NCBI RefSeq assembly: GCF_000816105.1
Contig: NZ_CP007140.1
Coordinates: 1,700,388-1,764,387, forward strand
Source: Thermococcus guaymasensis DSM 11113
Lineage (GTDB): Archaea; Methanobacteriota_B; Thermococci; Thermococcales; Thermococcaceae
DNA: 64,000 nt
Direction of reading: 5' to 3'
Of this stretch, positions 14,599 to 18,448 are shown piece after piece (position 1 is the stretch's first letter; each line of letters starts with the position of its first letter). The notes beneath the pieces were generated by a model, which was not told where the DNA came from, made no database searches, and saw nothing but the letters and a program-made list of their open reading frames with translations. Both the position numbers and the translations under genes were made by a program.

Positions 14599-15939
14599 TC
14601 AATCCCTCCAGTCGAGCAACCTCTTCTCACCGTCTATCTCCTTGTAAGGGGCGATGTCCATAGTCATTTCAAGGGTTCCTAGATAGTTGCCCTCCTCGTC
14701 AAAGAGGGGCACGTATTTTATGTAAACGTACTTCGGTCCGAGCCTGAGCCAGAAGGCTGCCTCCTTCTTTCTGCCCTCCTTGAAGGCCTTGAGTATCTTG
14801 TTGACTATGTGGACGCTCTTCGGCGGGTGGCAGAGCTGGACGGGCCTTCCGAGCACCGATGGGGTCCTGGCGAATATTCTCTCGCCCGGCGAGAAGAAAC
14901 GAACGCGGTCGTCCCTGTCTATAAAGGTCACGTCCACCGGAAGGGCCTCGAATATCGCCTTTAGTTCCTCAATGCTCACGTAGCCGGTTCCAAGGTCTAT
15001 GTCCCCATCACGCTTCAGTTCGGTCTTGTCGAACTCCAACGGCTGACCCTTTAACGCCTGCTGAACCTCCTTTGGGAGGCTTAAGAGCTCCTCCACACCC
15101 AGTTCGGGGTTGATCTCCCAGGGGTGGAGCGGTTTAACGTCCTCGCCGGGGTCCCAGGCTGGGGGGTTTATCTTGTAGTAACCAATCTCATCCTCCTGCA
15201 TCCTTATTGCCTTCCACTCCCCATCGCTCAGCAGGGCCTTTAGGGTTGGGTAGTAGATGTTGTTCTCCCTGAAGACCATATCGCTCAGCGCGAACGAAGC
15301 CTCGCCCGCCTTTTCCTTAAAGCGCTCAACGAACTCCTCCCAGGGCACCTCATTTCTCTTCCTCAAAAGCTCGGCAAGCCTCTTTACCATGAACCTTATC
15401 TCATCGTGCTTCGTCCAGAGGACGGTAGCTATTGCTGTCAGACCCCTCCGCTCGATGTAGGGGAAGGTGAGCATCTCCTCGCGGTTGTAGTGGGTGAAGC
15501 CGACCTTCCTGAGGTTGCCCACTATCTCCTCCAGGACACCGAGGATTTCCTCCCTCATGCGCTCGTCCCTGGTGGTTGCCAGAGTCCTCGCGTAGAGGTT
15601 GAGCATCTCGGAGTCCTTCATTATCTCCTTGTTTTCGAGGTAGAGCGTCTTGAGCGGGTGTCCATCGGGCAAATCCTTCTCCTCAAGCTCCTCCGTTCCG
15701 GCAACCGCTTCCCTGAACAGCTCAACGTGCAGGTCGCACATCTTCGCTATGTCCTTGGCGGAAACGCCTTCCTTCACGAGCTCCTGCTCTATGATTGGAA
15801 TCTCAAGGGGGGAAATGCCGCTCAAAACCCTACGGAATTCTTCCTTGAGTTTATTCACGTCCTCGCCCTCGTGGATTCTAAGGAGAAGCTTCTTCAGCTG
15901 CTCCTTCTTGTATTCGCGATTGTTCAACAACTCAGTCAT
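14599..15939 (-). CDS. DUF438 / hemerythrin-like / PAS domain protein
   Basis: A 446-residue protein in three parts: an N-terminal DUF438 helical domain (about 1-80), a hemerythrin HHE-like helical bundle (about 85-240, with histidines such as DLHVEL, GFTHYNREE and WTKHDE) and a C-terminal PAS domain (about 310-440, with FIDRDDRVRFFSPGERIF). This layout suggests a cytoplasmic sensor or carrier for O2 or NO. The start at 15939 follows AGGTGG. A palindrome ATGAC-N4-GTCAT lies at 15953-15966, just upstream, and recurs at the hybrid cluster protein gene, linking the two. Confidence 0.87.
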   Translation of the reverse strand: MTELLNNREYKKEQLKKLLLRIHEGEDVNKLKEEFRRVLSGISPLEIPIIEQELVKEGVSAKDIAKMCDLHVELFREAVAGTEELEEKDLPDGHPLKTLYLENKEIMKDSEMLNLYARTLATTRDERMREEILGVLEEIVGNLRKVGFTHYNREEMLTFPYIERRGLTAIATVLWTKHDEIRFMVKRLAELLRKRNEVPWEEFVERFKEKAGEASFALSDMVFRENNIYYPTLKALLSDGEWKAIRMQEDEIGYYKINPPAWDPGEDVKPLHPWEINPELGVEELLSLPKEVQQALKGQPLEFDKTELKRDGDIDLGTGYVSIEELKAIFEALPVDVTFIDRDDRVRFFSPGERIFARTPSVLGRPVQLCHPPKSVHIVNKILKAFKEGRKKEAAFWLRLGPKYVYIKYVPLFDEEGNYLGTLEMTMDIAPYKEIDGEKRLLDWRD

Positions 15940-15952
15940 CTTTACCACCTTC

Positions 15953-15966
15953 ATGACGAGTGTCAT
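15953..15966. promoter_or_regulatory. operator palindrome A (ATGAC-N4-GTCAT)
   Basis: A perfect inverted repeat, ATGACGAGTGTCAT. It lies 13 bases upstream of the DUF438/hemerythrin start and just downstream of a minus-strand TATA-like cttaaaagta (about 15973-15982), so it covers the expected transcription start. That placement fits a repressor site. The same motif occurs at 17923-17936 and 18001-18014. Confidence 0.72.
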
Positions 15967-16015
15967 ACTGGGTACTTTTAAGCGTTTCTGGGCAGATTTG
16001 CCCAACAATCTTTAT

Positions 16016-16029
16016 ATGTCGCATGTCAT
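16016..16029. promoter_or_regulatory. operator palindrome B (one mismatch)
   Basis: ATGTC-GCAT-GTCAT, the shared motif with one mismatch in the left half. It overlaps the 3' end of the TATA-like tttatatg (16011-16018) in front of the TusA/DUF1858 gene. Protein bound here would block TBP access. Confidence 0.6.
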
Positions 16030-16050
16030 AGGAGGGAACGGTGATGAAAA

Positions 16051-16530
16051 ATGATGCTCGACGTTCGTGGATTGAAGGCACCCCAGCCGGCGGTTATGAT
16101 AATAGAAAGCCTTGGAAAGATCCAGGTGGGGGAAACGCTTGAAGTCATAGGCGACAAGCCTTTCGTTGACATGATAGGGAAGCTTGAGGAGGCCGGTTAC
16201 AGGATTGAGTTGAAGGAAATCGGTGAAGCCTTCGTGCTCAGGATAACCAAGACCGAGAACTCCAGGGAGCTTACGATGGAAGTTAAGGAGTGCGACGATA
16301 AACTGGACGGGATAACCGGGGAAACCAACGTGGGCAAGCTCCTAAAGGCCTATCCGGAATCCCTCAAAATCCTGGTGAAGTACGGCTTCTCGCCCCTTGA
16401 GAACCCCGTGATGAGGAAAACCCTCGCGAGGACGATAACCCTGAGGGGGGCAAAGAAGCTCATCGGGATGAGCGACGAGAGGTTCAAAGAGATGATGAAG
16501 GAGCTGAAAGAGTTGGAAAAGAAAAATTGA
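16051..16530 (+). CDS. TusA/DUF2249-like plus DUF1858 domain protein
   Basis: A 159-residue two-domain protein. Residues 1-70 have the SirA/TusA-like pattern (LDVRGLKAPQPAVMIIESL ... LEVIGDKPFVDMI). The TusA cysteine in the CPxP motif is replaced (APQP), as in DUF2249 proteins. Residues of about 90-155 match DUF1858 (VGKLLKAYPESLKILVKYGF). DUF1858 and DUF438 often accompany hemerythrin and hybrid cluster proteins. It is divergent from the DUF438 gene with palindromes A and B between them. The ATG at 16054 is an alternative start. Confidence 0.83.
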   Translation: MMLDVRGLKAPQPAVMIIESLGKIQVGETLEVIGDKPFVDMIGKLEEAGYRIELKEIGEAFVLRITKTENSRELTMEVKECDDKLDGITGETNVGKLLKAYPESLKILVKYGFSPLENPVMRKTLARTITLRGAKKLIGMSDERFKEMMKELKELEKKN

Positions 16531-16533
16531 AAA

Positions 16534-17904
16534 TCAATCAAGCTCTTCAGCGAGGGGTGAACCCTCTTCTACCTTTATGCCCTTATTCAGCATATCCCTA
16601 AGGTCTTTCTCGGGGTCTCCGATGAGCCTCAGGTCAAACTGCTTCCGGAGTATCTCAAACACGTTGGGGGTCAGGAACTCTGGAGCTTTAGGTCCGATGT
16701 AGATGCCCTTGATTCCCAGGTGGAGGAGCGAGTAGAGTATCGCTATAGCCTTCTGCTCCATCCAGCTGAGGACTATGCTCACCGGCAGGGAGTTCACGTC
16801 CGTTCCGAGCTCGTTTGCGAGGGCAGCGGCGATTTCGATTATTGAGTACACGTTGTTGCACTGTCCGAAGTCGAGGAAGCGCGGGATTCCTTCAATGGTA
16901 CCGTAGTTTCTCGCGTTGTAGCGGAACTTACCGCACGCGGCTGAGAGGATTAGCGCGTCCTCCGGGATAAGCTCGGTGAGTCTCTCGTAGTAACCCATAC
17001 CCTTGTGCGGCGTATCACAGCCGCCCACGACGAAGATGTGCCTTATCCTGCCCTCCTGGATGAGCTCTATCAGCCTGTCCTTCATAGCTAAAACGTTGGT
17101 GTGGTGGAAGCCGGTGAGGAGCTTTCCACCGTCGTAAGCCTTCATCCTGGGGGTCTCAAGGGCGCGCTTTATGAGCGGCTCGAAGTTGTAGTCCTCAATG
17201 TGAGGAACCCCCTCAAGGCCCGCTATTCCAACGGTGAAGATTCTATCCTGATACGCCTTCGTCGGCTGCTGGACACAGTTGCTTGTTCCCAAGATTACTC
17301 CCGGGAACTCCGCGAATTCCTTCTTCTGGTATAGCCACGAGCCTCCCCAGTTGCCGTAGAGGGCTTTGAACTTCCTCAGCTCCGGGTAGGCGTGAGCCGG
17401 AAACATTTCCGAGTGGGTGTAAACCTTGAGCTCGTCCTCAAGGCCCATCTCCTCGATCTGCCTGAGGAGCTCGTAGAGGGCCTTGTAGCTGTGGCCGGTG
17501 ACGAGTATTCCGTGACCCTCGGCGGTTCCGGTGGGCACTTCGACCGGCTCTGGCCTGCCGAAGGTCTCGACGTAGGCCTTATCGAGGAGCTCCATGGCCT
17601 CAAGGTGAACCCTTCCGTTTTCGAGTATGAGCTCAAGGAAGCGGTTCTTGTCAAAGTTAACGTTGGTCAGAGTCGAGTAGAGGGCCTCGGCCAGAAAGTG
17701 CCCTATTTTTGGGTCGTCGTAGCCAACCTCAAGGGCGTGATAGTAGTAAGCTGCCGTTCCCTTTATTCCGTAGAGGAGGGCCTCCTGAAGGGAGTTGAGG
17801 TCCGGATCCTTTCCGCACACTCCCCTTATCGTGCATCCTCCCTCCAGGCTCATCGAGCACTGGTTGCAGAGCATTCCGTACCTCTCCGGGGTTCTTATCG
17901 CCAT
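16534..17904 (-). CDS. hcp: hybrid cluster protein (hydroxylamine reductase)
   Basis: A 456-residue iron-sulfur protein. The N-terminal cluster cysteines are Cys13, Cys16, Cys24 and Cys30 (MLCNQCSMSLEGGCTIRGVC). Later hybrid-cluster regions include GGCDTPHKG, SAACGKFRYN and FGQCNN. The enzyme reduces NO or hydroxylamine in the cytoplasm and is a marker of nitrosative stress defence. The start at 17904 follows GGGTGTGGG; palindrome C lies 18 bases upstream. The gene is divergent from a small HTH regulator and convergent with the TusA/DUF1858 gene. Confidence 0.94.
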   Translation of the reverse strand: MAIRTPERYGMLCNQCSMSLEGGCTIRGVCGKDPDLNSLQEALLYGIKGTAAYYYHALEVGYDDPKIGHFLAEALYSTLTNVNFDKNRFLELILENGRVHLEAMELLDKAYVETFGRPEPVEVPTGTAEGHGILVTGHSYKALYELLRQIEEMGLEDELKVYTHSEMFPAHAYPELRKFKALYGNWGGSWLYQKKEFAEFPGVILGTSNCVQQPTKAYQDRIFTVGIAGLEGVPHIEDYNFEPLIKRALETPRMKAYDGGKLLTGFHHTNVLAMKDRLIELIQEGRIRHIFVVGGCDTPHKGMGYYERLTELIPEDALILSAACGKFRYNARNYGTIEGIPRFLDFGQCNNVYSIIEIAAALANELGTDVNSLPVSIVLSWMEQKAIAILYSLLHLGIKGIYIGPKAPEFLTPNVFEILRKQFDLRLIGDPEKDLRDMLNKGIKVEEGSPLAEELD

Positions 17905-17922
17905 TTCCCACACCCCCAATTC

Positions 17923-17936
17923 ATGACAGGTGTCAT
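17923..17936. promoter_or_regulatory. operator palindrome C (ATGACAGGTGTCAT)
   Basis: A perfect inverted repeat in the hcp leader. The likely minus-strand TATA (cttttatgaa) is at about 17962-17971, so the site falls at or just after the expected transcription start. This is a classic repressor position. It shares the same half-sites and 4-base spacer with sites A and D. Confidence 0.75.
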
Positions 17937-17998
17937 ATGCGGTTGTTTATTGGAAAAATCTTCATAAAAGCGTTGCGGTTTCTTAACTTAAAGAAGGG

Positions 17999-18016
17999 TT
18001 ATGACTTATGTCATAA
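17999..18016. promoter_or_regulatory. operator palindrome D (TTATGAC-N4-GTCATAA)
   Basis: The longest copy of the shared motif, a 7+7 inverted repeat with a TTAT spacer. It sits about 15 bases upstream of the BRE/TATA of the regulator gene (cttaaatatt, 18031-18040) and about 30 bases upstream of the hcp TATA on the other strand. It could serve autoregulation, activation of hcp, or both. Confidence 0.75.
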
Positions 18017-18030
18017 CAAATCCCAAAAAG

Positions 18031-18062
18031 CTTAAATATTCCGCCTGTCATGGTTACCACCA
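18031..18062 (+). promoter_or_regulatory. TATA box of the HTH regulator, leaderless start
   Basis: The stretch caaaaagcttaaatatt is a good archaeal BRE/TATA. Counting about 26 bases from its centre puts transcription start at or next to the ATG at 18062, and no Shine-Dalgarno site is present, so the mRNA is probably leaderless. Confidence 0.6.
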
Positions 18063-18448
18063 TGAAGGTCAGCGCTTTCGAAGTTGCCTCACGCTATGTT
18101 TATCCCTCACTCAGGCGGAGACTTGTAGAACACCTCCGCGAGAAAGGCCTGAAGCAGACCGAGATAGCGAGGCTCCTCCACATTACCCAGTCTGCCGTTT
18201 CCCGCTACCTCAACATGGATAGGGGGGCCTTAATAGACATCTCTCAGTTTCCAGACATTGACGCTGAGCTCCGCTCGTTTGCCGAAGAGATTATTGAGAA
18301 AAAGCCCGGGGAGTACGAGATACACAGGAGGCTCGTGGAGATCTCAGTAAAAATGTTGGGAAAGGGCTATGTCTGCTCATTCCATGCAAAAATTGACCCT
18401 GAAATAAATCCCTCAGAATGCAACGTGTGCCTTGACCTCTTTGGGTGA
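18062..18448 (+). CDS. HTH regulator with C-terminal cysteine cluster, candidate hcp regulator
   Basis: A 128-residue protein. Residues of about 15-55 form an XRE-like helix-turn-helix (KQTEIARLLHITQSAVSRYL). The C terminus has Cys105, Cys120 and Cys123 with His108 (YVCSFH ... SECNVC), a set that could hold an iron-sulfur cluster or zinc. Position next to hcp and a palindrome in its own promoter make it the likely factor that binds ATGAC-N4-GTCAT and senses NO or redox state. That role is inference; the HTH assignment is firm. Confidence 0.85.
   Translation: MKVSAFEVASRYVYPSLRRRLVEHLREKGLKQTEIARLLHITQSAVSRYLNMDRGALIDISQFPDIDAELRSFAEEIIEKKPGEYEIHRRLVEISVKMLGKGYVCSFHAKIDPEINPSECNVCLDLFG

Follow-up and report, generated by a model that had tools for sequence, protein, structure and literature searches.

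In anaerobic bacteria, HcpR regulons control hcp and often hemerythrin-like genes as well, and the regulator gene is divergent from hcp in some genomes (PMC1274295). Bacterial NO regulons have hcp, a norV-type flavodiiron protein gene and a dnrN-type hemerythrin protein gene as core members, and the COG4309 family is another recurrent NO-regulated gene (PMC1274295). In bacteria, the hybrid cluster protein (HCP) itself acts as an NO reductase of high affinity (PMC10210160). The NsrR and NorR regulons have the same core targets, namely hcp, dnrN (hemerythrin, YtfE/RIC type) and norV (flavodiiron); NsrR is an Rrf2 protein with a repression logic, and NorR is a sigma54 activator.

Among archaea, HTH-ThiN (ThiR-like) regulators combine an HTH domain with a C-x2-H...C-x2-C module, and ThiR carries a C-terminal ThiN ligand domain. 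The Thermococcales regulators SurR, Phr and TrmBL1 use short palindromic promoter operators whose motifs (GTTn3AAC for SurR) are unlike the palindrome ATGAC-N4-GTCAT described here. To our knowledge, none of these three regulators has an hcp/DUF438 core regulon, and no described archaeal hcp/DUF438 regulon was found in the freely accessible literature that we searched.

The locus analysed here lies in a 64,000-nucleotide stretch of the Thermococcus guaymasensis genome (the window). Judged by its genes, its nearest counterpart in function is the bacterial HcpR regulon: hcp is the predicted main target, with a palindrome at 42/42 hcp promoters in the genomes sampled, a hemerythrin-like gene is included, and the regulator gene is divergent from hcp. 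One HcpR consensus, TTGACnnnnGTCAA, even has its TGAC-N4-GTCA core in common with the archaeal operator (PMC1274295). However, HcpR belongs to the CRP/FNR family, whereas the archaeal regulator is a 128-aa XRE-like HTH protein in which Pfam detects no CRP/FNR or cNMP-type domain. Because the two regulators differ in family, the likeness of the cores looks convergent or coincidental. The logic proposed below is that of NsrR, but both NsrR and NorR are unrelated to the HTH protein, in which Pfam and NCBIfam searches gave no match to an Rrf2-type winged helix, and their operators (gATGyAT-N5-ATrCATc and GT-N7-AC, respectively) are different. The protein has the same HTH and C-x2-H...C-x2-C module as the ThiR-like regulators, with profile search matches in Thermoproteota, but it lacks a ThiN domain according to Pfam and its targets differ.

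Results

Genes and candidate operators of the locus

The features of the locus are as follows, where all transcription start site (TSS) positions used here are inferred from TATA boxes.

14599 to 15939, minus strand: DUF438/hemerythrin (HHE)/PAS protein, 446 aa (Pfam PF04282, PF01814, PF13596)
15953 to 15966, no strand assigned: operator 1, exact, ATGACGAGTGTCAT; candidate start-site operator of the DUF438 gene
15989 to 16004, no strand assigned: 16-bp palindrome TGGGCAGATTTGCCCA, between the divergent TATA boxes of the DUF438 and TusA-like genes
16016 to 16029, no strand assigned: operator 2, one mismatch, ATGTCGCATGTCAT; overlaps the TATA box of the TusA-like/DUF1858 gene
16051 to 16530, plus strand: TusA-fold (DUF2249-like) and DUF1858 protein, 159 aa (PF08984, PF01206, PF10006 sub-threshold)
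16534 to 17904, minus strand: hcp, hybrid cluster protein, class III-like, 456 aa (PF03063, TIGR01703)
17923 to 17936, no strand assigned: operator 3, exact, ATGACAGGTGTCAT; hcp-proximal
17977 to 17988, minus strand: second hcp element, (A/G)GTTAAnnAACC, immediately upstream of the BRE/TATA of hcp
18001 to 18014, no strand assigned: operator 4, exact, ATGACTTATGTCAT; candidate distal hcp operator, which precedes the TATA box of the HTH gene as well
18038 to 18051, plus strand: operator 5, imperfect with two mismatches, ATTCCGCCTGTCAT; joined to the TATA box of the HTH gene
18062 to 18448, plus strand: HTH regulator, 128 aa, an XRE-like HTH followed by a C-terminal C-x2-H-x3-D-x7-C-x2-C

The DUF438/hemerythrin/PAS protein is the orthologue of PF0695 and has a PDB sequence match to 3cax. 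In the TusA-like protein, the TusA motif G-L-x-C-P-x-P is replaced by GLK(A/P)PQP, with Ala or Pro in place of the catalytic Cys, in all orthologues with a readable motif (five are unreadable). Because this cysteine is missing, the protein is probably not a sulfurtransferase, and an annotation as such is probably wrong. Its sub-threshold match is to the DUF2249 family, which we take to be COG4309. The best PDB match of the hcp product is 7e0l, a class III enzyme, and the protein lacks the middle region of roughly 100 residues that distinguishes classes I/II from class III (PMC10502027).

The palindrome is rare in the genome

The first-pass annotation of this DNA had reported three perfect copies and one near copy of ATGAC-N4-GTCAT, and all four are present where it placed them (operators 1 to 4). 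A pattern search of the complete T. guaymasensis genome (1.92 Mb) returned exactly three exact matches, all within the same 2.1 kb, and none to the reversed control pattern. When one mismatch was allowed, the genome held 57 forward matches compared with 21 for the control, and thus single-mismatch copies alone carry little weight. Among 5-bp inverted repeats with spacers of 0 to 10, ATGAC-N4-GTCAT is the sole family in the 64-kb window with at least three exact copies inside 2.2 kb. A look-elsewhere test produced some such family in 1/40 Markov-1 simulations (p ~0.025 from the window alone), and therefore the window by itself is suggestive rather than decisive. Comparative sequence data, not window statistics, settle that the palindrome family is real.

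The sites mark the same genes throughout the Thermococcales

A match to the HTH protein was found in 72/94 Thermococcales genomes and to hcp in 52/94, where some of the matches are fragments. To the window we added 60 regions from other Thermococcales genomes, fetched by their HTH or hcp gene with sites ignored. Of the 42 hcp genes in this sample, 40 have an exact site no more than 130 bp upstream and the remaining two have a one-mismatch site, as the first-pass annotation's proposed check on orthologous hcp genes had anticipated. An exact site also stands directly upstream of 36/44 DUF438 genes. In the remaining eight cases, the DUF438 gene follows a site-bearing flavodiiron protein gene as the second gene of its operon, so that all 44 DUF438 operons in these regions, which were not selected for sites, have a site either directly or at the operon head. 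Three further flavodiiron-DUF438 operons (L179, L180, L185) come from regions fetched because of a site.

Sites are essentially absent from unrelated loci, the other check that had been proposed. Among the remaining ORFs (100 aa or longer), 7/831 have an exact upstream site, all seven of which encode flavodiiron proteins, leaving 0/824 non-target ORFs with a site. The flavodiiron protein, whose gene adjoins the DUF438 gene in at least 11 other genomes, is thus a predicted further member of the regulon in some relatives; the regulon of the window itself yielded none. In genome G093, an exact site also stands in the promoter of another flavodiiron protein gene, away from the DUF438 locus (L184:5226-6407).

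By a hand count across 41 genomes, approximately three-quarters of all exact sites are at core promoters. The hand-counted rate of non-core exact sites (~0.8 per genome) equals that in genomes lacking the HTH gene (0.82 per genome), and the regulon defined by exact sites therefore comprises essentially these genes. The regulon first proposed, consisting of the hcp, DUF438/hemerythrin/PAS, TusA-like/DUF1858 and HTH genes, is accordingly strongly supported by site conservation, and the 14-base palindrome beside hcp is, on these comparative grounds, a real and conserved switch site.

Two further groups of sites were considered and set aside. DUF4405-like small membrane protein genes have exact promoter sites (as in L175, L176 and L178) in just G005, G021, G024 and G043; because most relatives have none, this protein is an occasional regulon extension at best. 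Three other kinds of site, in a cdc6/MTAP intergenic region, within a gene for malate dehydrogenase and ahead of an MFS gene (L167, L170, L182, L181), are not widely conserved and were regarded as background. The cdc6/MTAP site, exact in L167 and L170 from the related genomes G005 and G007, has no clear target gene and is possibly near a replication origin.

Operator positions overlap promoter elements

Alignment of the sites refines the motif to ATGACR-N2-YGTCAT. Operator 1 spans about -14 to -1 relative to the TSS inferred from the TATA box at 15975-15982. The position of this site relative to the start codon is the same in 43 DUF438 promoters; in nearly all, the site begins 24 to 36 bp before the start codon, at the expected transcription start. 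Operator 3 likewise conforms to the general position of hcp-proximal sites, just 3′ of the expected start site (inferred here from the TATA box at 17963-17970). In TusA-like and HTH promoters, the right half, GTCAT, does not vary, and the left half-site is degenerate and merges into the TATA box. The left half is mostly ATG(C/T)C in TusA-like promoters (ATG(C/T/A)C overall) and ATTCC in HTH promoters. Operators 1 and 2 are 63 bp apart, and this spacing between the DUF438 (or flavodiiron) site and the TusA-like site is constant across most genera.

The form AT..C-N4-GTCAT lies within 45 bp of the HTH start in 56/59 orthologues, and the corresponding site at 18038-18051 is the predicted operator of the HTH gene itself, which the first-pass annotation overlooked. 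Its assignment of sites to four promoters stands for the hcp, DUF438 and TusA-like/DUF1858 genes, but not for 18001-18014 as the HTH site. That site, 78 bp from operator 3 in the window, is assigned to hcp as a distal operator because L116 and L124, in which the locus has no HTH gene beside it, keep a distal-proximal spacing of 79 to 80 bp. In further genomes, approximately 190 to 194 bp separate the distal from the proximal hcp site. It is possible that operator 4 also affects the HTH gene.

Two other elements were noted. The sequence (A/G)GTTAAnnAACC occurs in 35/42 hcp promoters, mostly 51 to 55 bp from the operator 3 position, and is probably the site of another factor, possibly an activating one. 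The SurR motif resembles it but has a different spacing. The palindrome TGGGCAGATTTGCCCA is the sole match in the window at up to two mismatches, and variants lie upstream of other DUF438 genes; it is possibly the site of another factor too.

The HTH gene tracks its sites

Among 74 high-quality genomes, 11 were counted as lacking the HTH gene, including G026 with just a partial divergent match. The hcp gene is present in 47/63 HTH-containing and 0/11 HTH-less genomes (Fisher p = 3e-6, uncorrected for shared ancestry), and hence every high-quality genome with hcp also has the HTH gene. Ten of the 11 HTH-less genomes have neither DUF438 nor hcp. The exception, G017, has a DUF438 gene whose promoter retains the TATA box and an upstream TGCCCAGAAACG element, which is part of the 16-bp palindrome, but has lost the operator. 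This genome is an apparent natural experiment linking operator loss to loss of the HTH gene.

The converse state, HTH without detected hcp, is found in 16 high-quality genomes. In L147 (G018), from a very close relative whose HTH protein is 98% identical to that of the window, hcp is interrupted by an in-frame TAG. The hcp genes of G093 and G088 likewise contain in-frame stops, and hcp is truncated in others. This pattern suggests that hcp decayed repeatedly while the HTH gene persisted.

In the g3 genomes, HTH, hcp and DUF438 are at separate loci, yet exact sites at hcp and DUF438 are kept (L116, L169, L171, L172, L174; the DUF438 loci among these were retrieved by their sites). Outside the Thermococcales, the Desulfurococcales MAG L207 has hcp, an exact site and a divergent HTH gene. 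In the Thermoproteota MAG L208, an HTH gene whose site is embedded in its TATA box precedes an exact site and then DUF438. In each case this is the sole exact site of the genome. These contigs are short and binning error is therefore possible, but at 58% and 55% identity the HTH proteins that they encode are more distant than full-length Thermococcales orthologues (63 to 98%).

A conserved Cys/His module in the HTH protein

The HTH protein matches PF01381 (HTH_3) above the cut-off, and Pfam returns HTH_3/HTH_5-type matches only. Its AlphaFold model is all-helical (pLDDT 89.5); PDB sequence searches gave generic HTH matches and Foldseek gave E > 1. Residues C105, H108, D112, C120 and C123 are invariant in 49 sequences and could hold an Fe-S or zinc centre. 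Because distant homologues, among them HTH-ThiN proteins and one of 321 aa with a ThiN domain, have the C-x2-H...C-x2-C arrangement too, it is not diagnostic of a sensor and may instead be a structural zinc site. The profile matches place the regulator among XRE-type proteins, with the archaeal HTH-ThiN regulators as relatives.

Discussion

The scheme that we favor, and consider on the whole fairly likely, is that of a dedicated, autoregulated HTH repressor of a small regulon, released by reactive nitrogen species. An HTH dimer would bind the inverted repeat ATGACR-N2-YGTCAT. In unstressed cells it would block transcription of hcp, the DUF438 gene (in some species a flavodiiron-DUF438 operon) and the TusA-like/DUF1858 gene by occupying their TATA boxes or start sites, and it would do the same at its own promoter by way of an imperfect operator that is weaker and lies within the TATA box. 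Its release would be triggered by reactive nitrogen species, with NO the likeliest, probably via a metal centre held by C105/H108/C120/C123, so that an NO-reducing and iron-centre-repair set is turned on and autoregulation then resets the system. The parts of this scheme differ in strength. The sites, their positions and conservation, and their joint occurrence and loss with the HTH gene are observed. The HTH protein very probably binds the sites, and its action there is quite probably repression. Taken singly, a sensing role for the Cys/His centre is conceivable rather than probable.

With regard to the signal, we lean toward NO or a relative because the gene set matches bacterial NO regulons and HCP reduces NO in bacteria; hcp and the DUF438-hemerythrin gene are in the window and the flavodiiron protein gene is in other genomes. 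The same regulator and operators could instead respond to O2, peroxide or general Fe-S damage and so form an oxidative-stress regulon, with the flavodiiron protein serving as an O2 reductase and the hemerythrin as an O2/iron sensor. Flavodiiron proteins reduce O2 or NO (PMC6033852), FdpA protects Pyrococcus furiosus against O2 (work cited in PMC4473059), and a single genome, G009, has a site at an EncFtn-like gene. However, hcp is the most consistent enzyme target, HCP peroxidase kinetics are regarded as non-physiological (PMC10210160), and with no other exact site in the T. guaymasensis genome, genes dedicated to oxygen defence, such as those for superoxide reductase and rubrerythrin, are, if present, not exact-site targets there. 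We regard this alternative as unlikely, though it is the main rival.

An autoregulated repressor is the best reading of operator position because the sites lie on TATA boxes or +1, including the imperfect site on the HTH gene's own TATA box. It is improbable that the protein is instead an activator that binds upstream of promoters under stress, as operator 4 might be taken to indicate. That operator lies upstream of the TATA boxes of hcp and the HTH gene alike, as the sites of archaeal activators can do, and paired sites approximately 79 or 192 bp apart are conserved; but the core sites at the DUF438, TusA-like, HTH and proximal hcp promoters are on the TATA box or TSS, and a separate conserved palindrome takes up the place next to the hcp BRE, on its upstream side, where an activator would be expected.

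The g3 genomes in which the HTH gene is apart from hcp and DUF438 (L114, L115, L118) would be in keeping with a different, unlinked regulator that binds the palindrome and has the HTH gene as merely another target. We consider this very improbable, since presence, absence and operator loss all track the HTH gene and its pairing with the site recurs in two MAGs of other lineages. A chance repeat, or an element unconnected with transcription, could draw on the modest window statistic and on non-core sites as frequent as in HTH-less genomes, but is already refuted by position-specific conservation across six genera with none of the non-target ORFs bearing a site.

The repressor scheme may have a wider reach, although we think the following extension somewhat doubtful: the protein would be an archaeal NO-sensing repressor from a family with no earlier link to NO, and its C-x2-H...C-x2-C module, shared with archaeal HTH-ThiN-type regulators, would bind an Fe-S cluster that is destroyed by NO; the regulon and its operators would have moved between archaeal lineages; and the HcpR-like core would have evolved independently.

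Little is known of reactive-nitrogen sensing in strictly anaerobic hyperthermophilic archaea, and there is dispute over what HCP does in archaea (PMC10210160). A candidate regulator with a 14-bp operator and few targets would make both questions testable in the genetically tractable Thermococcus kodakarensis or P. furiosus. The analysis also offers a hypothesis of function for the DUF438/hemerythrin/PAS and TusA-like/DUF1858 proteins and for a branch of archaeal XRE-like regulators.
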